9,288 nucleotides of DNA. Origin: Acidobacteriota bacterium (lineage in GTDB: Bacteria; Acidobacteriota; Terriglobia; UBA7540). The position numbers were made by a program, and so were the translations under genes. Position 1 is the first letter of the stretch. Every line of letters begins with the position of its first letter. Under the pieces are notes generated by a model. It made no database searches. It had not been told where the DNA came from and was given only the letters and a program-made list of their open reading frames with translations. The stretch is taken from contig PLWR01000421.1 of the NCBI GenBank assembly GCA_003165615.1, positions 1 through 9,288 of the forward strand, in the 5' to 3' direction. Below are positions 98 through 9,288 of this stretch, piece by piece.

Positions 98-784
98 TCA
101 ATTCTTCTGATTAGATTTCCAATGGACGTATTCCTTCGTGCTTGCATACCAGTTCTCCAAGGCACTCAGGAAGCACTTTCGCGCTAGCTCAGGGTTTTTC
201 GCCTTAATGCCTTCCAGGACGGGGAGGTGGGATTGGGCGTCTTGGATCAGATCGATTGCTTCCCCCGAGTGAATCCTCATGGCGGAAAATGCATAAACCG
301 GAACGAGAACGCGCCGAAGGGCTGATTCCAAATACTCGTTGTCCGCGATGGCCCAGATCTTCATGTGGAAAGCGAAATCGGCCTGCAGAAATTGCTCCCC
401 TTTCTTCGCTCGAGCTATTTTCAACAATTCCTCATAGGCTTTTTCCAAGTCCTTGGTTTGGGCCGGCGTTGCCAGGCATGCGGCTTGTTCCACCGCGAAG
501 CCTTCCAGGACTTTGCGCACCGCGAAAATCTTCTCCCCGGCGTCGGGAGTCAGCGTGGTGATGTAAGTCGCAGTGTTGGGCTTCTTGGTCACAAAGCCAT
601 CGGCCTCAAGGGCGACGAGAGCTTCGCGCACTGCGGTTAGACTTGTCCCGAATTGACTCGCCAGGCGGCGCTCCACGATCTTTTCACCCTCCCGGAGCGT
701 CCCGTTGAGGATGGCTTCCTCAATCCGGTCTGCGATCATTCGGCGCAGGGTTACAGACCCGAAGGGCTTGAATACTATGGGCAT
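98..784 (-). CDS. GntR-family transcriptional regulator, FCD (FadR) subfamily
   Basis: A 228-residue DNA-binding regulator. Residues about 10-78 form the GntR winged helix; the recognition-helix text LTAVREALVALEADGFV is typical. Residues about 85-220 form the all-helical FCD ligand domain, which in characterised members binds carboxylic or sugar acids, often through a metal. D136 and H140 (DFAFH) and H186 (SHLPVLEGI) match three of the usual metal ligands, but the fourth position, normally His, is A208. The chosen start (784) is preceded by GGAGG with six bases between. The upstream in-frame ATG at 826 lies inside a palindrome and lacks such a site. The gene is the last in its direction, 587 bases beyond the GxGYxYP gene, and a palindrome in its leader suggests autoregulation. 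It probably controls the neighbouring catabolic genes; this is inference. Family assignment is firm, effector unknown. Confidence 0.93.
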   Translation of the reverse strand: MPIVFKPFGSVTLRRMIADRIEEAILNGTLREGEKIVERRLASQFGTSLTAVREALVALEADGFVTKKPNTATYITTLTPDAGEKIFAVRKVLEGFAVEQAACLATPAQTKDLEKAYEELLKIARAKKGEQFLQADFAFHMKIWAIADNEYLESALRRVLVPVYAFSAMRIHSGEAIDLIQDAQSHLPVLEGIKAKNPELARKCFLSALENWYASTKEYVHWKSNQKN

Positions 785-790
785 TTCTTG

Positions 791-795
791 CCTCC
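791..795 (-). promoter_or_regulatory. Ribosome binding site of the GntR gene
   Basis: The minus strand reads GGAGG, then six bases, then ATG at 784. This strong Shine-Dalgarno match decides the start in favour of residue MPIVFKPF rather than the longer in-frame reading that begins at 826. Confidence 0.8.
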
Positions 796-811
796 AAAGG
801 CCGAGCGTCAA

Positions 812-834
812 AAACCGGCATGGCATACCGGTTT
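812..834. promoter_or_regulatory. Palindromic operator candidate in the GntR leader
   Basis: The arms AAACCGG (812-818) and CCGGTTT (828-834) are exact inverted complements. The inner bases ATG (820-822) and CAT (824-826) also pair, leaving one mismatched pair (819/827) around a central base at 823. It lies 28 bases upstream of the GntR start codon. GntR/FCD proteins bind short palindromes as dimers and often repress their own gene, so this is the best candidate autoregulatory site. The minus strand of the site contains GGTATGC, also found at 7191-7205. Confidence 0.6.
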
Positions 835-1371: not shown

Positions 1372-3108
1372 TCATTTCTGCTGATACAACAGCACCAACT
1401 GGTCCGGCCGGACAGCGACGTATTCCGGTCCCAGACCGTCGGCGATGTTCGCTGCCATTTCCAGGTCGGTCAGCCAATTGCTCAGGAAGACGTGTAGGAA
1501 GGCGGGCCGTTCGTGCGGGGTCCAGCGTTTGATTTCGTTGATCATGAAAAACTCTGCGTCCCGCCGGGCGGAAGGGGTCCAGTTGTAGCCGGATGGCGGC
1601 CCGCTGTTGATTGATCGGAAAACGGGGGTGCCCGCAACCACGGTATCCGTGTTTTCCGGGGTGGTGACGTGTGTGCGGCCATAATTGGCGAAGATGCCCT
1701 TGATTCCCGGGATTCCCGCCAGCAGCGCCAGCCGTTCCGGCGACATTTCCGCCAGAGTTGACATCACCGTGGCATCCAGCCGGGCGCGGTAAATGCCGGA
1801 AATCCGGACGAAGTCACGCCAGATTTGTTCCCGCTGCTCGGGCGGGTAATTGTTGGCATAGACGTCCTCATGGATGTAACCCACACCCGAAAGGGCATTC
1901 ACAAAACAGTCGCCGGGCTTCGCGTGCTTGAAGAAATAATCCACGATGTCAGGCTGCCCGTCGAGGGCGGCAGGATTCATCTGCCAGCCAATGGGCACGC
2001 GGCCATGTGTCCGGTCCGTGAAGAGCTTGCGGTAGTAGTGGCGCTGAAAGTTCCACCCGTCGCCATCAGAGCGCGTGAAGCAGAAATAGACTTTGTCGGG
2101 CTGAAGTCTTACGGGGGGAATCGCCTGGTGAACTTTGGCCGACGTTCCCGAATGAACCGAAAGATTCCCCACCGTGGGAGAGTATCCATCGTAGCCTGAG
2201 CAGAGCTCGAACTTGCCACACTCGCTTAACAGGCGGACGCCCTCCCACTCGGCAATACCCCCCTGAGGCTCGTCGCCGCTCCCCGGCCAGCCGAAGCAGG
2301 GGATGTTGGCCGGCCACTTCATGAGGATTTCACGTGCGAACTCCTTTTCCTCCACCGGCGAGGCTTGCGGTTGCTTCGCGACGTCCTGGGGGCCGGATAT
2401 CCAAAGGATGGGAATCTTGAATTCCAGCAGATAGTCGCGCAGGGCCACCTCATGCGGGTCGAGGATGGCCAGGGACCGGCGGGAAAGTTGGTCGCCGATC
2501 TTCTCAAACGCCCACTGGTAGGCATCCAGGTCCTTTTTCCAATTCATGAAACCGAGATCCATGCCCATATTCCATGAATCCGGCAAATGCCCCATGGGCA
2601 GGTCGAATTGGTTGGCGACGTGAGGCGTTGCCACCAACCCGGCATGCACACTGGCCAGCATCGTGGCCACGTTGATGCTGGCGGGGATGGCGGGATCCGT
2701 CACGAAAACCACTTTGGCTTCCGGAAGGAAGAGTCCAAATACGTCAGCGATCTCCAGCCACTTCACTTCGTCCACGTCGCCGCGCTCGCGCAACCAGTCC
2801 AGCCACAGTTCGTCGTAGTAATCGTGCACCAGATAGAGGCGAGGCTGCGACCTGTTCACCAGGCCTTGCAGGCAGGTTAGCGTGAGCCGCATGTCCCAGT
2901 TGAATGAGGTTAGCTCCTCCATTCGGAAAGCGTAGAGCTTGCGAGCGGGAGGCGCGGATTTGGGACAGACCGTTAATTCGGGCGCTGTCTCAGCCAAGCC
3001 GGGCGCCGCCACCAGCAGGCTCCCCAGCGTCGCTGCGGAGGCTTGCATGAATCCCCTCCGCGTGATCGACATCCTGTTTAAGAACTGCAACTCATGAGGG
3101 TCATTCAT
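1372..3108 (-). CDS. Tat-exported GxGYxYP-family protein (putative glycoside hydrolase)
   Basis: A 578-residue protein of the GxGYxYP family, a group annotated as putative glycoside hydrolases but with little biochemistry. The N-terminus has a twin-arginine signal: RR at residues 17-18 in ITRRGFM, a hydrophobic stretch at 22-38, and likely cleavage after GLA (39). Export to the periplasm or outside is therefore expected. Residues about 55-240 look like the family's N-terminal domain. The C-terminal catalytic-type domain follows, with an SDGDGWNF stretch at 347-354 and the signature at 408-413, here GVGYIH instead of the consensus G-x-G-Y-x-Y. The chosen start has AAAGG eight bases upstream; the internal ATG at residue 13 has AGG directly abutting it and is less likely. 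The gene has its own upstream promoter candidate. It probably acts on extracellular glycans for the locus, but the substrate is unknown. Confidence 0.82.
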   Translation of the reverse strand: MNDPHELQFLNRMSITRRGFMQASAATLGSLLVAAPGLAETAPELTVCPKSAPPARKLYAFRMEELTSFNWDMRLTLTCLQGLVNRSQPRLYLVHDYYDELWLDWLRERGDVDEVKWLEIADVFGLFLPEAKVVFVTDPAIPASINVATMLASVHAGLVATPHVANQFDLPMGHLPDSWNMGMDLGFMNWKKDLDAYQWAFEKIGDQLSRRSLAILDPHEVALRDYLLEFKIPILWISGPQDVAKQPQASPVEEKEFAREILMKWPANIPCFGWPGSGDEPQGGIAEWEGVRLLSECGKFELCSGYDGYSPTVGNLSVHSGTSAKVHQAIPPVRLQPDKVYFCFTRSDGDGWNFQRHYYRKLFTDRTHGRVPIGWQMNPAALDGQPDIVDYFFKHAKPGDCFVNALSGVGYIHEDVYANNYPPEQREQIWRDFVRISGIYRARLDATVMSTLAEMSPERLALLAGIPGIKGIFANYGRTHVTTPENTDTVVAGTPVFRSINSGPPSGYNWTPSARRDAEFFMINEIKRWTPHERPAFLHVFLSNWLTDLEMAANIADGLGPEYVAVRPDQLVLLYQQK

Positions 3109-3601: not shown

Positions 3602-4645
3602 CTAGACGACCTCAACCGCCTTGGCGGTCTTTGCTGACTCGTAGCAGGCGGAGAGGATATTCTGGCTTCGCAAGCCAACTTCGCCGCTGATCGTGGTTGG
3701 GCGCCCATCCAAGATAGCCTGACTGAACTCCTCGATTTCCGCGCGGTAAATATTCACCGGCTCCGGGGTAATTTCCAGACCTCGCGCCGCCGCGCGAGCC
3801 TGTTGGGTGTCATACCCTCTGTCGCCTTCCTGTAGGCAAGCAACCATTTCCCCGGCGCTCGCCTGTGAAATCGTCCCTTTGGCCAGAATGCTGCCACGCG
3901 AGCCGTAAAGCTCAAGGACGTTCTTGCTGCTTTCGTCGGGAATGCAAAAGAACGCGTCGACGGTTGCCAGGGCACCATTGACGAAGAAGAGTGTCACTAC
4001 CGCGCTATCTTCAGACGCATACGGGTGGACTGTCCGGTTGGTAAAGCAGCTGACTTTCTTCACCACGCCGAAGAACATCTCCAGCAAATCGATGCAGTGG
4101 CCACCCATGTCAATGAGCGAACCGCCGCCGCCTTGGGCCGGGTCCTGCCGCCAGGCGCCTTCCACCGGCGGATACCAGCACGAAAGCTGGGCGCGGCCGT
4201 AGACCGGCTGGCCAAGCTTCCCCTCCTGAATGAGCTTCAGTGCCTTCTGATTCTGCGATTGAAAACGCATCATGAAGCCGCAGCCGAGCTGCACACCGGC
4301 ACGCTGGCAGGCGGCGATCATCTCTTTGCCCTCATTCACCGTCATCCCCAGGGGCTTCTCACACAAAACGTGCTTCCGGGCCTGGGCGCACCGCAGCGTC
4401 TGTTCGTGATGCTTGTTGGCCGGCGTAGCCACGTAGACAGCGTCAATCCCCGCTTCGAGCAGGTCATCGATGCCGCCCAAGGCTTTGGCTTTGAATTGCT
4501 GGGCCACCTCGTTGTTGAGTTTGGAATTGATGTCGAAGACCGCGATCAGTTCCGCATTCCTGCCGAGAATGATTCCTTCGGGAATGGTTCGGCGGCGGGC
4601 AATTCCGCCGGAGCCGATGACTCCCCACCTGATCTTGTTCGCCAT
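3602..4645 (-). CDS. Gfo/Idh/MocA-family NAD(P)-dependent oxidoreductase
   Basis: A 347-residue cytosolic dehydrogenase of usual family length. Residues 1-120 form a Rossmann domain with the dinucleotide loop WGVIGSGGIA (7-16) and the conserved E96-K97-P98. The C-terminal domain carries the family's G-G-G-x-L-x-D-M-G-x-H motif at 173-183; D179 and H183 are the usual catalytic or substrate-binding residues. Members oxidise or reduce sugars, inositols and related polyols, or catalyse NAD-dependent glycoside hydrolysis; the substrate cannot be told here. The start is supported by AGGAG six bases upstream. It begins 12 bases after the stop of the ceramidase-like gene, so the two are almost certainly co-transcribed, and it may act on the sugar released by that pathway. 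Confidence 0.93.
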   Translation of the reverse strand: MANKIRWGVIGSGGIARRRTIPEGIILGRNAELIAVFDINSKLNNEVAQQFKAKALGGIDDLLEAGIDAVYVATPANKHHEQTLRCAQARKHVLCEKPLGMTVNEGKEMIAACQRAGVQLGCGFMMRFQSQNQKALKLIQEGKLGQPVYGRAQLSCWYPPVEGAWRQDPAQGGGGSLIDMGGHCIDLLEMFFGVVKKVSCFTNRTVHPYASEDSAVVTLFFVNGALATVDAFFCIPDESSKNVLELYGSRGSILAKGTISQASAGEMVACLQEGDRGYDTQQARAAARGLEITPEPVNIYRAEIEEFSQAILDGRPTTISGEVGLRSQNILSACYESAKTAKAVEVV

Positions 4646-4657
4646 GATCCGCTCCTC

Positions 4658-5989
4658 TCATCTGGGGAAAAGTCCGTTGAGCTGCCGCAGGGCGGAAGCT
4701 GTGAGTTCGTCCCCCGCGCCCTCTTCGTAATATGTTGATCCCGTTGTAGGTTCGTAGCCGCCCTGCTCGAAGGCCTCCCGCGTCGGCAGATACCCGATCG
4801 CGTCGTTGGTAAGTTCAACGACAAGAGTGTGCTTCGCGGGCGACTGCTTCTTGATTTGCAGGCCAAACTCACAGAATATTTCACCCGGCAACGTCACGAT
4901 CCCGAGATCGCCGATGCGAAGGGCGTTGACTTCCACGAAATCGTCGGCTTCCTGATTCTGGTACATCTGCAACCACGTCAGCGCATAATGCTCATCGGGA
5001 AGGCCATCCACTTGGCCGCAGGCCGGGTGCTCTTTCGCTTTCCGCAGTACCTCTTCCGACCACAGGCGTTGGTCTTCGCTGATTTTCAGCCGCTTCAGTC
5101 GAACCTTCTCACGGGAAAGAGCTATGCCGTTTCCTTCCACCGGCACGGCGCGCGTCCTGGCTTCGCAGGCCGCGACGCCCAGCATGTAACCCACGCGCTG
5201 GGCCATCTCGAAACCGCGACCCTGCGTCCTGTCCGCATAATTGAGGTGAACGATGTTCCCGCAGCAGCCGTTGAAAAAGGCGGTGATGAAATCGTCGCCC
5301 GTCAGCCGCGCGAGACTCTCGGCCAAATAGCCAGGGTAGTCAGCGGAATAAAGCCAGTTGTCGCCCGCCAGAATCGCCGGGTGCAGGGCGAAATTCACCA
5401 GAGCAGCCGCGGGTTTTCCGTCCTGATCAATCGAAAGCGTGGTCATTTGCGGGTCAATCGGCCCCAGCGGTTCGATGACAAACTCCGGGTCTAGTCCTTC
5501 CCAACACATGTGCGTTTTGCCGTCCTTGCAGCGCAACCGACGGTTGAAGGAGACCCGGTTCTCCTCGGTCGTGCCGAAGGTAAGCCGCGACGGTTTGAGC
5601 TGCTGGTTAGCCAGGACTGCGGCGTTGGCGGCTTTGGTCAAGAAGCGTTCGATGGCCGCGTCGTCGGACTTGGGGAGCGAACCCAGACTCATCGCCGCAG
5701 GTCCGCTGTGGGTGTGGGTGGCAGCAATGATAATGTTTTCAGGACGGAGATCGGTCTGAGAAGCAATAAAGCGGCGCATAAGCGAGGCATTGTTTCGATC
5801 GATCATACAAATGTCGAGCGACAACAACGCGACCTTGGTGCCGGCCGAATCCTGAAACACCAGCGCACGAGAATACAAGGGATCGTGAATGCCCCGCGCT
5901 CCGTAATCGTCACGGAAGTTTCCCATCAGGGGAAGGCCCAGCGCCGGTGTGTAGTCCACACGAGCCACCCCAATTTTCAAGCTCAGCAT
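4658..5989 (-). CDS. Neutral/alkaline ceramidase-family hydrolase, short cytosolic form
   Basis: A 443-residue protein matching the N-terminal catalytic domain of neutral/alkaline (non-lysosomal) ceramidases, zinc-dependent amidases. Visible signatures are ATHTHSGPAA (H92, H94), NFALHPAIL (H203) with SADYPG just after, FNGCCGN (239-245), LPGEIF (E370), and a Tyr-rich C-terminus (Y400, Y412). In the Pseudomonas aeruginosa enzyme two His, one Glu and one Tyr bind zinc; H92, H203 and E370 fit three of these. It lacks the signal peptide and the C-terminal immunoglobulin-like domain of true ceramidases, so it is probably cytosolic with another amide or ester substrate. The start at 5989 has GGGGGAG six bases upstream and opens with the family-typical KIGVARVDYTP. 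The frame extends to an ATG at 6163, but that 58-residue extension looks non-coding. It follows the cysteine-rich pair and precedes the oxidoreductase. Confidence 0.85.
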   Translation of the reverse strand: MLSLKIGVARVDYTPALGLPLMGNFRDDYGARGIHDPLYSRALVFQDSAGTKVALLSLDICMIDRNNASLMRRFIASQTDLRPENIIIAATHTHSGPAAMSLGSLPKSDDAAIERFLTKAANAAVLANQQLKPSRLTFGTTEENRVSFNRRLRCKDGKTHMCWEGLDPEFVIEPLGPIDPQMTTLSIDQDGKPAAALVNFALHPAILAGDNWLYSADYPGYLAESLARLTGDDFITAFFNGCCGNIVHLNYADRTQGRGFEMAQRVGYMLGVAACEARTRAVPVEGNGIALSREKVRLKRLKISEDQRLWSEEVLRKAKEHPACGQVDGLPDEHYALTWLQMYQNQEADDFVEVNALRIGDLGIVTLPGEIFCEFGLQIKKQSPAKHTLVVELTNDAIGYLPTREAFEQGGYEPTTGSTYYEEGAGDELTASALRQLNGLFPR

Positions 5990-6185: not shown

Positions 6186-6635
6186 TCACCGTTGCCAGGT
6201 TTGAGGCTTTTTCTCGATGGTCAGGTTACACCGGGCCTCTTTACAGGTGCTGAGATCGATGTTGTATTTGAAACCCAAAGGCTCCAAGGCGCGACGATAC
6301 AGTACATCGCAGTGCTCGCAGTAGTGCTCGTACGCCTCGATGTGTTTAGTCTCGTTCAGCATTCCCATGCTGGGGCAATGTCGCATCTCGATTTCGAACT
6401 TCCCGTTTTCCTCGTCAAGCGTCATACGAAAGTCAGCCGCCTCTTCCGTCAGCGTATGACTCCAGTATTCAAAACAGCCGGCCAGTCCCTTCGATGCTGC
6501 CAAGTCACGCAGATTGGTGAGGAACTCGTCCGAGAGGCTCTCCCAAAACTTGACCACCGCATCCTTCCCACCCTTGGCGTGCAGAAACTTGAAAAGCTCG
6601 CTATACGCAGGAATGAATTCCGTGCAGGAAATCAT
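6186..6635 (-). CDS. Small cysteine-rich protein, second of a paralogous pair (possible ATC-hydrolase-like fold)
   Basis: A 149-residue soluble protein with no signal peptide or membrane segment. The N-terminal half is helical; the C-terminal half holds the sequence RHCPSM (C87), then YCEHCD (C106, C109), then C131 and C136. The pattern G-x-x-A, ...GL...W...TEE...F, then CP, then YC, then C-x(n)-C is shared with the protein encoded just upstream, so the two are paralogues. The layout recalls the L-2-amino-thiazoline-4-carboxylic acid hydrolase-like family, though this is a recollection of pattern, not a search result. The start at 6635 has AAGGAG seven bases upstream and lies four bases after the upstream stop. 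Longer in-frame ATGs (to 6776) overlap the upstream gene and are rejected. The tight coupling suggests a hetero-oligomer with its neighbour. The paired cysteines could bind metal or form a redox centre. Confidence 0.72.
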   Translation of the reverse strand: MISCTEFIPAYSELFKFLHAKGGKDAVVKFWESLSDEFLTNLRDLAASKGLAGCFEYWSHTLTEEAADFRMTLDEENGKFEIEMRHCPSMGMLNETKHIEAYEHYCEHCDVLYRRALEPLGFKYNIDLSTCKEARCNLTIEKKPQTWQR

Positions 6636-6639
6636 CCGT

Positions 6640-7119
6640 TTACTCCTTCCTTTTCCAAAACTTCTGAACGCAGCGGCCCTCCCCGGGCTCGTACTGGGTG
6701 AAGCAAGCGTGGCCGGCTTCGCCACAGATCGTTTCATTGACGACCACCGTCGTCTCACAATAGCGCGGGGTGACAAGCTGATGGATCTTCTTCAAGTGCG
6801 CAATGGCGGGACATTCATGGACAGTCAAGACCAAGGCGCCGTCCTTGTATTCCAGGGTGAACTTGCCGCCCTCTTTCGTGAAGATCTCGTTCCAATGTTT
6901 TTCCAGCGCCGTTAATCCCTCGTTTTTCAGGAGCTGGCTCAACGGTGCATAATAACTTCGCCCGACCGCCCTCAGGTACTCTGCGGTGGCCTCCGGACCG
7001 AAATGGTCATCCAAGTACTTGATGCCATAACACAGTGCCCCATGAAAGTCCTGGTGCAGATACTCGTGATCGGTCGCCTTGCAATCCAGGACCCGGAGCT
7101 CCTTCTTGGAATCAACCAT
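6640..7119 (-). CDS. Small cysteine-rich protein, first of a paralogous pair (possible ATC-hydrolase-like fold)
   Basis: A 159-residue soluble protein and the likely first gene of the operon. Helical N-terminus (FHGALCYGIKYLDDHFGPEA) with C30; then HECPAI (C103), RYCETT (C121), and C132, C139 and C150 near the end. It aligns by eye along its length with the next gene product, sharing the A/G-rich helix, the GL...W...T-x-E-x(3)-F stretch, the CP motif and the YC motif. This is the same tentative family call (ATC-hydrolase-like) with the same doubt. The ATG at 7119 has GGGAAGGA just upstream and is preferred; a GTG five codons earlier (7134) has only a distant GAAGG. A promoter and operator candidate lies 60-85 bases upstream. 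Function unknown; the operon suggests a role in handling the substrate or product of the ceramidase-like hydrolase. Confidence 0.74.
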   Translation of the reverse strand: MVDSKKELRVLDCKATDHEYLHQDFHGALCYGIKYLDDHFGPEATAEYLRAVGRSYYAPLSQLLKNEGLTALEKHWNEIFTKEGGKFTLEYKDGALVLTVHECPAIAHLKKIHQLVTPRYCETTVVVNETICGEAGHACFTQYEPGEGRCVQKFWKRKE

Positions 7120-7631: not shown

Positions 7632-7952
7632 ATGAAACAGACCATTCTGTACGGTGCGGGGGACCTTCGGATTGAGGATGTTCCTTTGGAGGCGAGTTCA
7701 TTGCAGCGCAACCAGGTCTATGTGGAAACTGAAGTCTCGGCCCTTTGCACGGGAACTGACTTGGGGAATTACCTGGGAGACTCGGGGTATGTTCCCGATG
7801 CGCCTCGTTACCCAAGATGGGTTGGCGCGGCTTCCCACGCTGTTTATGCGTGTCTTTCCGATTTCGAAACGCGATTCACTACATCCGGTATCAATCCGGC
7901 CCAAGTCAGGCAATTCAGTCAGCAAACGACCGTCAAAATTGTTAGCCCATAA
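7632..7952 (+). pseudogene. Truncated zinc-type alcohol dehydrogenase (MDR) N-terminus
   Basis: Residues 1-65 match the start of medium-chain zinc-binding dehydrogenases: MKQTILYGAGDLRIEDVPLE, then VYVETEVSALCTGTDLGNYL, in which the Cys is the usual catalytic zinc ligand, then VPDAPRYPRWVG. After Gly65 (about 7826) the family text stops. The next 41 residues to the TAA at 7950 do not fit, and no other plus frame clearly resumes the enzyme. Family members run to about 330-350 residues, so the cofactor domain is missing. A deletion or insertion near 7826 fits better than a simple frameshift. The ATG at 7632 has only a weak purine stretch upstream (AAGAGAAC). It is probably non-functional; a sequence error or chimeric assembly is possible. 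Confidence 0.75.
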
Positions 7953-7998: not shown

Positions 7999-8012
7999 GT
8001 GGTACCTGGCAC
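7999..8012. repeat. REP-like GTGGTACCTGGCAC element
   Basis: The imperfect palindrome resembles the GGTGCCTGGCACC-type intergenic repeats common in several environmental phyla, from memory of such genomes. A single copy is seen in this window, so its status as a dispersed repeat cannot be confirmed here. Confidence 0.25.
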
Positions 8013-8027
8013 AGAATTAGCGGTCAC

Positions 8028-8045
8028 GCCGAGGGAGGCTCCGGC
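8028..8045 (+). promoter_or_regulatory. Hairpin presenting GGAGG before the MFS start
   Basis: GCCGAG (8028-8033) can pair with CTCCGGC (8039-8045, one bulged C), leaving GGAGG (8034-8038) as the loop. In linear form this Shine-Dalgarno sequence is 14 bases from the ATG at 8053, too far for normal use. Folding would shorten the effective distance. Whether it serves as the ribosome site is uncertain. Confidence 0.3.
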
Positions 8046-8052
8046 AAACCTC

Positions 8053-9288
8053 ATGCCGTCAACTCTTGGGCAAGGCAGCGACACACGGGAACCGTCCGGC
8101 GCAGCTTCGAGCTGGGTACTGGTCTGGGTCCTCACCGTCATCGCGATGCTCAACTATGCGGTTCGAACGTCCATCACCGCTGTTTTCCCGTTGTTGAGGA
8201 CCGACTTGGGGTTCACGGATGCGGGCTTAGGCGCCATCGGATCGTTTTTCCTTTGGAGCTACGCCCTAATGTCCCCTTTGGCTGGGCATTTAGGCGACCG
8301 GTTCGATAGGGGCCGAATCGTTCTGTGGACCCTCATTGGGTGGAGCATCGTAACCGCTGCGTCGGGCCTGGTGACTACGCGATGGGAACTTCTGGGAATG
8401 CGGGTTTTATTAGGCCTTGTCGAATCGTTATTTCTCCCCGCGGCGATGGCCTTGGTCGCTGAGTATCATCCTGCCAGAACAATCGGGACGGCGCTGGGGT
8501 TTCTGGGCGTCGGACAGTGCATCGGAGTGATTGGGGGCGCCACCTTCCAAGGTTTTCTCGCCGATCATTACGGTTGGAGACCTTCCCTGTGGGTGCTCGG
8601 ATTCGTTGGTCTTTTGTTTGCCATTCCCACTTATTTCATCGTACCGATGAAAAAGCGCAGGGCCGCGGAAGGAAATGCCGAACCCCTGGCGCACACTCCC
8701 CATCCCGGGTTGTCTTTTGTTGAAGCATCTCTTCAGTTGCTGAGGATCCCTTCGTTCCTGATCTTGACGGCCGCCGGGGCACTGACCTCAATCGGGGTCT
8801 GGATCTTTCTCAACTGGCTTCCCCTCTATTTTAAGGAAGCCTTTGCCATGTCTCTGGCCGGCGCGGGGTTCTTTGGCGCGTCGTTCGTGAACGGCAGTGC
8901 TGCCGTAGGCCAGGTGTTAGGCGGGATGGTTTCGGACCGGGTGGCACGCAAAGGCGCAGAACAACGTATGCTATTACAAGGCATTCTGATCTTTGCCGCT
9001 GCGCCTACCCTTTTGGCGTTCGTCGGTACGAGGGGCCTGCTCGTCATCGTCGTGGCGCTTACGCTGAATTCCGCATTTCGAACCGCTGCGGACATCAATA
9101 TGCAGCCTTTGCTGTGCGATTTAGCGGGTAACGACAAGCTCTCCACCGCTTTCGGTATTACCAACATGGTGAATTGTTTGTCGGGAGGATTGGGTATCTT
9201 TGTGGCCGGCTTGCTGAAATCGAGCCGAGGGCTCTCGGTGGTCTTTTCCGGGATCGTGGGCATTCTGATCATCGACGCGCTGATGTTG
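8053..9288 (+). CDS. MFS transporter, anion/sugar-acid symporter type (3' end outside window)
   Basis: An open frame of 412 codons without a stop runs off the window, so only a few residues are likely missing. The protein is an inner-membrane permease with about 12 hydrophobic segments in two halves. The first spans about residues 20-37 (WVLVWVLTVIAMLNYAV). MFS motif A lies between segments 2 and 3 at 78-88 (GHLGDRFDRGR), and a charged central loop at about 199-225 joins the halves. NYAVRTSITAVFPLL after TM1 and HYGWRPSLWVLG before TM6 resemble the anion:cation symporter group (hexuronate, galactonate and phthalate type), which would suit an FCD regulator. The ATG at 8053 leaves a short hydrophilic tail before TM1. 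No ATG lies upstream in frame; GTG 7999 is possible but has no spaced ribosome site. The substrate is unassigned. Confidence 0.88.
   Translation, partial: MPSTLGQGSDTREPSGAASSWVLVWVLTVIAMLNYAVRTSITAVFPLLRTDLGFTDAGLGAIGSFFLWSYALMSPLAGHLGDRFDRGRIVLWTLIGWSIVTAASGLVTTRWELLGMRVLLGLVESLFLPAAMALVAEYHPARTIGTALGFLGVGQCIGVIGGATFQGFLADHYGWRPSLWVLGFVGLLFAIPTYFIVPMKKRRAAEGNAEPLAHTPHPGLSFVEASLQLLRIPSFLILTAAGALTSIGVWIFLNWLPLYFKEAFAMSLAGAGFFGASFVNGSAAVGQVLGGMVSDRVARKGAEQRMLLQGILIFAAAPTLLAFVGTRGLLVIVVALTLNSAFRTAADINMQPLLCDLAGNDKLSTAFGITNMVNCLSGGLGIFVAGLLKSSRGLSVVFSGIVGILIIDALML

Follow-up and report, generated by a model that had tools for sequence, protein, structure and literature searches.

In a 9,288-nucleotide stretch of DNA from an Acidobacteriota bacterium (contig PLWR01000421.1; hereafter the window), two small adjacent genes, here termed A and B, encode diverged paralogues. 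We find that the pair recurs in the same order across genomes, that both proteins are predicted to have a TRAPP/V4R-like fold and carry nearly invariant residues, and that their main genomic partner is a pyruvate aldolase/lyase of the DHDPS family, with ceramidase-family hydrolases as a real minor partner. An earlier interpretation of the same DNA, made from its letters alone (the sequence-only reading), had placed the pair at the head of an operon with a ceramidase-family hydrolase and a Gfo/Idh/MocA enzyme; it missed the dominant DHDPS-family partner, which is absent from the window. We tentatively propose that A and B form a heterodimer with a cysteine-based metal or iron-sulfur (Fe-S) site in B, which would act as a two-subunit enzyme at or just before the aldolase step in the catabolism of sugar acids or N-acyl amino sugars; taken as a whole, this statement has in our estimate slightly less than an even chance of being correct, and we are far less sure of the exact reaction.

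A scan of GTDB species genomes yielded 135 relatives of A, and 80 loci were kept. By script, 78 of the 80 loci have B behind A on the same strand, and in 62 of these 78 the two genes overlap by 4 bases; in L070 the B gene is interrupted by a stop codon and truncated at the contig end, the stretch of L059 ends at A, and the A-then-B order holds in 79/79 testable loci. In the window the two genes are separated by 4 bp, as the sequence-only reading had it, and the ribosome-binding site of B (AAGGAG) overlaps the last codons of A. In 49 whole genomes, searched with thresholds of E below 1e-50 for B and E below 1e-45 for A, we identified 58 strong B and 56 strong A matches, and 56 of the 58 B genes adjoin a strong A, including one (G002:C155) in which a 247-aa open reading frame (ORF), GDSL-hydrolase-like by eye, sits between A and B. 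The two B genes without an adjacent A are one at a contig start (G049:C198) and one whose neighbours, judged by eye, resemble UROD and NagA (G045:C55). There is one strong pair in 47 of the 49 genomes, two in G044, and seven plus a fragment in G002, the planctomycete GWF2_42_9, whose pairs include L004, L007 and L009-L012. Because the pair is a conserved unit, the hetero-oligomer that had been suggested for it is likely. The A-A and B-B identities across 62 loci are correlated (r = 0.51, with 0 of 2000 permutations as high), a correlation for which shared ancestry alone could suffice.

Record titles assign the loci to Planctomycetes, Lentisphaerae, Kiritimatiellota, Armatimonadetes, Chloroflexi, Acidobacteriota, Clostridia and others, and describe 78 of the 80 as metagenome-assembled genomes and the other two as 'uncultured bacterium'. 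The distribution is patchy, since only 3 of the 396 genomes in the phylum of G028 (which carries the Acidobacteriales locus L048) match, G028 itself included; the other two are G111, with a diverged A'-B' pair beside a BNR gene, and G418, whose match (L088) is a PF14196 protein. At L087 (896-1947, minus strand) lies an adjacent A'-B' pair of a second, diverged type, with CP and YC..C motifs in both proteins, no HxxxH in A', and a BNR protein alongside, which suggests that the family of such pairs is wider than A/B. A contig-end ORF at L092 (G026:C282, 1235-1513, plus strand), weakly matched by both the A and B profiles, is perhaps a third type of paralogue.

To characterize the neighbourhood, we searched 50 of the 80 loci, from 49 genomes (L004 and L007 share one), for genes lying on the same strand at a distance of up to 3.5 kb, and compared the counts to those expected from the density of such genes in these 49 genomes. 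DHDPS-family genes were found near 25 of the 50 loci (0.19 expected) and ceramidase-family genes near 6 (0.23 expected), the copy in L020 being barely within 3.5 kb; over the whole stretches, a ceramidase-family gene or fusion was present in 16 of the 50 loci (1.05 expected). BNR_2 genes were near 6 of the 50 loci (0.49 expected) and Gfo/Idh/MocA genes near 1 (at least 1.7 expected, since no more than 71 Gfo/Idh/MocA matches were counted per genome), where the observed neighbours came from BLAST/Louvain clusters and the expected ones from Pfam counts, and both observed numbers may be low. Gfo/Idh/MocA is therefore not enriched, and was rejected as a conserved partner. When all 80 loci are taken, 42 have a member of the DHDPS cluster within 3.5 kb, and 33 have one directly upstream. 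Direct upstream neighbours were censused at one gene for each of 72 loci plus two fusion ORFs; of these 74, 30 matched the DHDPS family and 4 the ceramidase family at E = 1e-5. Direct downstream genes, one for each of 62 loci, were mixed (SDR in 6/62, amidohydrolase in 3/62), and a census of further neighbours covered 94 of 170 as well as 9 exemplars. In the Clostridia loci L038, L044 and L058, a very long ORF stands immediately upstream of A; three of the upstream ORFs in the census are matches to FGAM synthase (PurL), and their length identifies them as the ORFs of these loci.

The DHDPS copies longer than 250 aa all keep a Tyr and a Lys (41/41), which we take to be the catalytic residues. 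Three loci have a member of an HpcH/HpaI-type cluster and no DHDPS cluster member, with the HpcH/HpaI-type gene near A in L006 and about 4 kb upstream in L030 and L060. A recurring cassette comprises GntR, the ceramidase family, a DegT aminotransferase, a zinc alcohol dehydrogenase, (SDR), DHDPS, A, B and a NagA-like deacetylase, and is found whole or in part, in varying order, in L016, L020, L036, L046, L052 and L068; the NagA-like gene follows B in L016, L020 and L036, with NCBIfam support in L020 and L036. Since BNR, NanA-like and NagA-like genes are nearby, catabolism of nonulosonates (sialic-acid-like sugars) is possible, and is not separable from that of other sugar acids. In two Bacteroidales loci, L066 and L080, a single ORF joins A to a ceramidase-family domain; the fusions are 42% identical and probably represent one event, and in L066 the ceramidase-family part has lost its HxH motif but the A part is retained. 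Enolase-type (PF13378) and IlvD/EDD (PF00920) dehydratases were rejected as local partners: among the matches listed, none is within 10 kb of a pair, and the nearest lie some 11 kb (G002:C69) and 15 kb (G035:C120) away.

Comparison of A with B by BLASTP gave 24% identity over 93 aa (E = 6e-9, a single pair), the A and B profiles cross-match each other's proteins in many loci, and hhalign of the A alignment against the B alignment gave a probability of 96.5 (E = 8.5e-10, 141 columns), all of which agrees with the sequence-only view that the two are diverged copies. Queries with single sequences retrieved 170 relatives of A and 1615 of B, and the A profile retrieved 812; these relatives, together with strong column conservation in both alignments, indicate that neither A nor B is a mere chance ORF. 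No Pfam or NCBIfam model scored above its cut-off for A or B of the window, matches to the NCBIfam models RGCVC and DVU_1557 being rejected as far under their cut-offs, and no precomputed Pfam domain was present among the A/B database proteins listed. A sequence search of the PDB with the two alignments likewise found no kin (best E = 0.12 for A and 0.26 for B).

AlphaFold2 models of A and B (pLDDT 91 and 93) fall in the same fold class, and with the alignments they bear out a common helical N-terminal half and a C-terminal half with CP and YC motifs. By structure comparison both models resemble the TRAPP-Bet3, BcsD, V4R-sensor and H-NOX fold, with the best matches in the V4R/TRAPP-Bet3 superfamily (Bet3, TPC6/Trs33, and the PoxR and MopR sensor domains), and both have a predicted Bet3-like architecture, in which helices pack against an antiparallel sheet of four strands. 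The superfamily is described as having glycine pairs in helices 2 and 5, and Bet3-family paralogues form homo- or heterodimers (PMC2253512), as A and B would. Neither protein of the window matched the V4R domain (PF02830) or a TRAPP Pfam model at E up to 1, and the V4R family, searched in 20 of the 49 genomes, gave one match, not on an A/B contig. In contrast to the known V4R/TRAPP proteins, nothing among the listed neighbours of A and B points to membrane traffic or to transcription domains.

In 101 sequences of A, Y20, H22, F25, H26, E83 and P104 are invariant, and C103 (95/101), H108 (93/101) and C132 (92/101) less strictly so; C121 and C150 are both present in 44 sequences, as in the window, both absent in 52, and C150 is alone in 5. 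In 96 sequences of B, C54, C87 and C106 are invariant, and C4, C109 and C136 are found in 95, the sole exception in each being a gap. The C-x(~19)-C-x(~28)-C pattern of the PF14196 type is present in B (C87/C106/C136, spaced 19 and 30) and in part of the A family (44/101; C103/C121/C150, spaced 18 and 29). By analogy, C87, C106 and/or C109, and C136 of B most likely bind a metal ion or Fe-S cluster, which would place in B the metal or redox site that had been expected of the pair.

PF14196, the L-2-amino-thiazoline-4-carboxylate (ATC) hydrolase family, had been put forward as a lead, and our comparisons are consistent with remote kinship but not with membership. B of the window scored 17.8 bits, under the Pfam cut-off of 28.1, and A of the window had no match at E = 1 or better; across the family, 17 of the 96 B members and 20 of the 101 A members gave weak matches (best E = 0.0013 and 0.0006, respectively). 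The A profile matches the PF14196 protein of L088 at E = 1.1e-5, and hhalign against four PF14196 members gave 40.5% for the A alignment (E = 2.9e-4) and 0.8% for the B alignment (E = 0.068). In these four proteins three columns are all Cys, spaced 20 and 29 (in L081), so that the family shares a CP-type, a central and a C-terminal Cys with A/B at similar spacing, although in the hhalign alignment the central Cys pairs with C109 of B rather than C106. Unlike PF14196, A and B form a paralogous pair, B holds the further conserved Cys 4, 54 and 109, and the HxxxH motif of A was not seen as conserved in the four aligned members. H-NOX, V4R and ATC hydrolase domains have been grouped together, with a three-Cys cluster noted (PMC5847659). 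The C-terminal Fe-S domain of SufR is similar in its Cys pattern, the homologue Rv1460 requiring C203, C216 and C244 (PMC6034842), with a second spacing of 28 residues compared to 29-30 in A/B; unlike SufR, however, A and B are single-domain proteins by model, without an N-terminal DNA-binding domain or a helix-turn-helix match. For cellulose synthase subunit D (BcsD, PF03500), which has a similar fold, A of the window scored 22.4 bits, just under the cut-off of 23, and 10 of 101 A members matched at E = 0.1 or better; B of the window had no match, and no bcs gene was present among the 25 families listed per neighbour census.

Under the reading that we favour, A and B, as diverged copies of a TRAPP-Bet3/V4R/ATC-hydrolase-type domain, would pair as the subunits of a single heterodimer, in which B would supply the cysteine site for a metal or Fe-S cluster and A would add a His/Glu set (H22, H26, E83 and usually H108). 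The heterodimer would work at or just before the release of pyruvate by the DHDPS-type, sometimes HpaI-type, aldolase, and a candidate step is a dehydration or ring-opening hydrolysis that yields a 2-keto-3-deoxy acid. We regard as rather doubtful the more specific version, in which a heterodimeric lyase or hydrolase of TRAPP/V4R fold, with a Cys-metal (or Fe-S) site, would provide a dedicated DHDPS-type aldolase with its 2-keto-3-deoxy substrate and thereby define a non-canonical route for degrading sugar acids or amino sugars in many uncultured phyla.

The main rival explanation is that the pair senses a ligand or the redox state: as a sensory heterodimer of the V4R/MopR/H-NOX/SufR kind that has no DNA-binding domain, it would report the state of the pathway in trans. 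Sensors abound in this fold class (PoxR, MopR, DmpR and H-NOX are among the structural matches), and JGI names the relatives P0007, P0009, P0129 and P0145 'predicted ArsR family transcriptional regulator', a name that presumably stems from resemblance to COG2345/SufR and is probably a misannotation, since A and B of the window show no DNA-binding domain. It has been proposed that V4R domains bind hydrophobic ligands and signal in cis or in trans (PMC2253512), and the SufR-like Cys spacing points the same way. We nevertheless consider a sensor unlikely, as no output domain was detected in either protein, the pair sits within catabolic operons, often right after the aldolase gene, and A has its invariant His and Glu and B its six nearly invariant Cys. 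These residue sets, more typical of chemistry, also argue against a BcsD- or TRAPP-like structural or assembly factor that keeps the aldolase or the ceramidase-family enzyme in a complex. Such a role, to which the near-threshold BcsD score of A, the dimerization of Bet3-family paralogues and the A-ceramidase fusions (above all L066, where the A domain outlasted the HxH motif) could point, would moreover have to accommodate partner genes that differ from locus to locus, and we regard it as improbable.

Still less probable, in our view, is a redox or metal-delivery partner of the linked dehydrogenases or of the zinc-type ceramidase-family hydrolase. B is rich in Cys, and SDR and alcohol dehydrogenases and the ceramidase family recur nearby; however, DHDPS enzymes, the commonest partner, require neither redox chemistry nor a metal, and SDR genes are direct neighbours in only 3 of the 74 upstream and 6 of the 62 downstream genes. 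We assign an equally low likelihood to the original proposal, in which the A/B pair would be the hetero-oligomeric core of a pathway that combines a ceramidase with a Gfo/Idh/MocA enzyme and acts on an N-acylated or amide-linked sugar. Its ceramidase part stands, given the enrichment near the pair and the fusion to A in one Bacteroidales lineage, and an N-acylated sugar is possible in view of the DegT genes of the six cassette loci, the NagA-like genes and the ceramidase-family genes, whereas its Gfo/Idh/MocA part does not stand and far more pairs adjoin DHDPS-type than ceramidase-family genes.

Among the papers listed by literature searches none concerned the A/B pair, and a search for DHDPS with ceramidase, Planctomycetes and operon found nothing related. 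A and B thus represent an unnamed but large protein family, whose loci come from metagenome-assembled genomes and uncultured bacteria, so that work on cultured strains would miss the pair. If A/B is an enzyme, the TRAPP/V4R fold, mostly known for sensing and tethering, would gain a heterodimeric catalytic version, and the pair would flag a catabolic route overlooked by annotation; its conserved operon partner makes the question of the substrate directly testable.

Table 1. Coordinates of the A/B pair and of other features in the window, with the conserved residues of each protein.
Feature	Position	Strand	Description
Protein A	6640..7119	minus	159 aa; ORF confirmed; TRAPP/V4R-like fold (predicted)
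Protein B	6186..6635	minus	149 aa; ORF confirmed; same predicted fold as A, paralogue of A
A/B junction	6636..6652	minus	A stop codon, 4-bp spacer, B ribosome-binding site
Ceramidase-family hydrolase	4658..5989	minus	neutral/alkaline ceramidase family (PF04734); minor conserved A/B partner
Gfo/Idh/MocA oxidoreductase	3602..4645	minus	next in the local operon; not a conserved A/B partner elsewhere
Protein A residues			H22, H26 (HxxxH), E83, C103-P104, H108, C121, C132, C139, C150
Protein B residues			C4, C54, C87-P88-S89, Y105-C106-x-H108-C109, C131, C136
GxGYxYP protein	1372..3108	minus	Tat signal; all four GxGYxYP putative glycoside hydrolase domains
GntR/FCD regulator	98..826	minus	downstream of the A/B cluster
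MFS transporter	7999..9288	plus	truncated by the window end; divergent from A/B
Dehydrogenase-like ORF	7632..7952	plus	residues 1-58 similar to the N-terminal end of the zinc alcohol dehydrogenase of A/B cassettes

In the window, where no aldolase gene is present and the ceramidase-family amidohydrolase is the local partner of A/B, the pair heads an operon only loosely: we moved the start of the ceramidase-family gene from GTG 6163 to Met 5989, the likely start, which leaves about 196 bp between B and this gene, and a further 12 bp separate it from the Gfo/Idh/MocA gene. The gene of the GxGYxYP protein lies about 490 bp past the latter. The dehydrogenase-like ORF has 33% identity to the zinc alcohol dehydrogenase of L052 (E = 3e-4, a single comparison) and diverges beyond residue 58, and from its sequence it looks like the remnant of a dehydrogenase gene.
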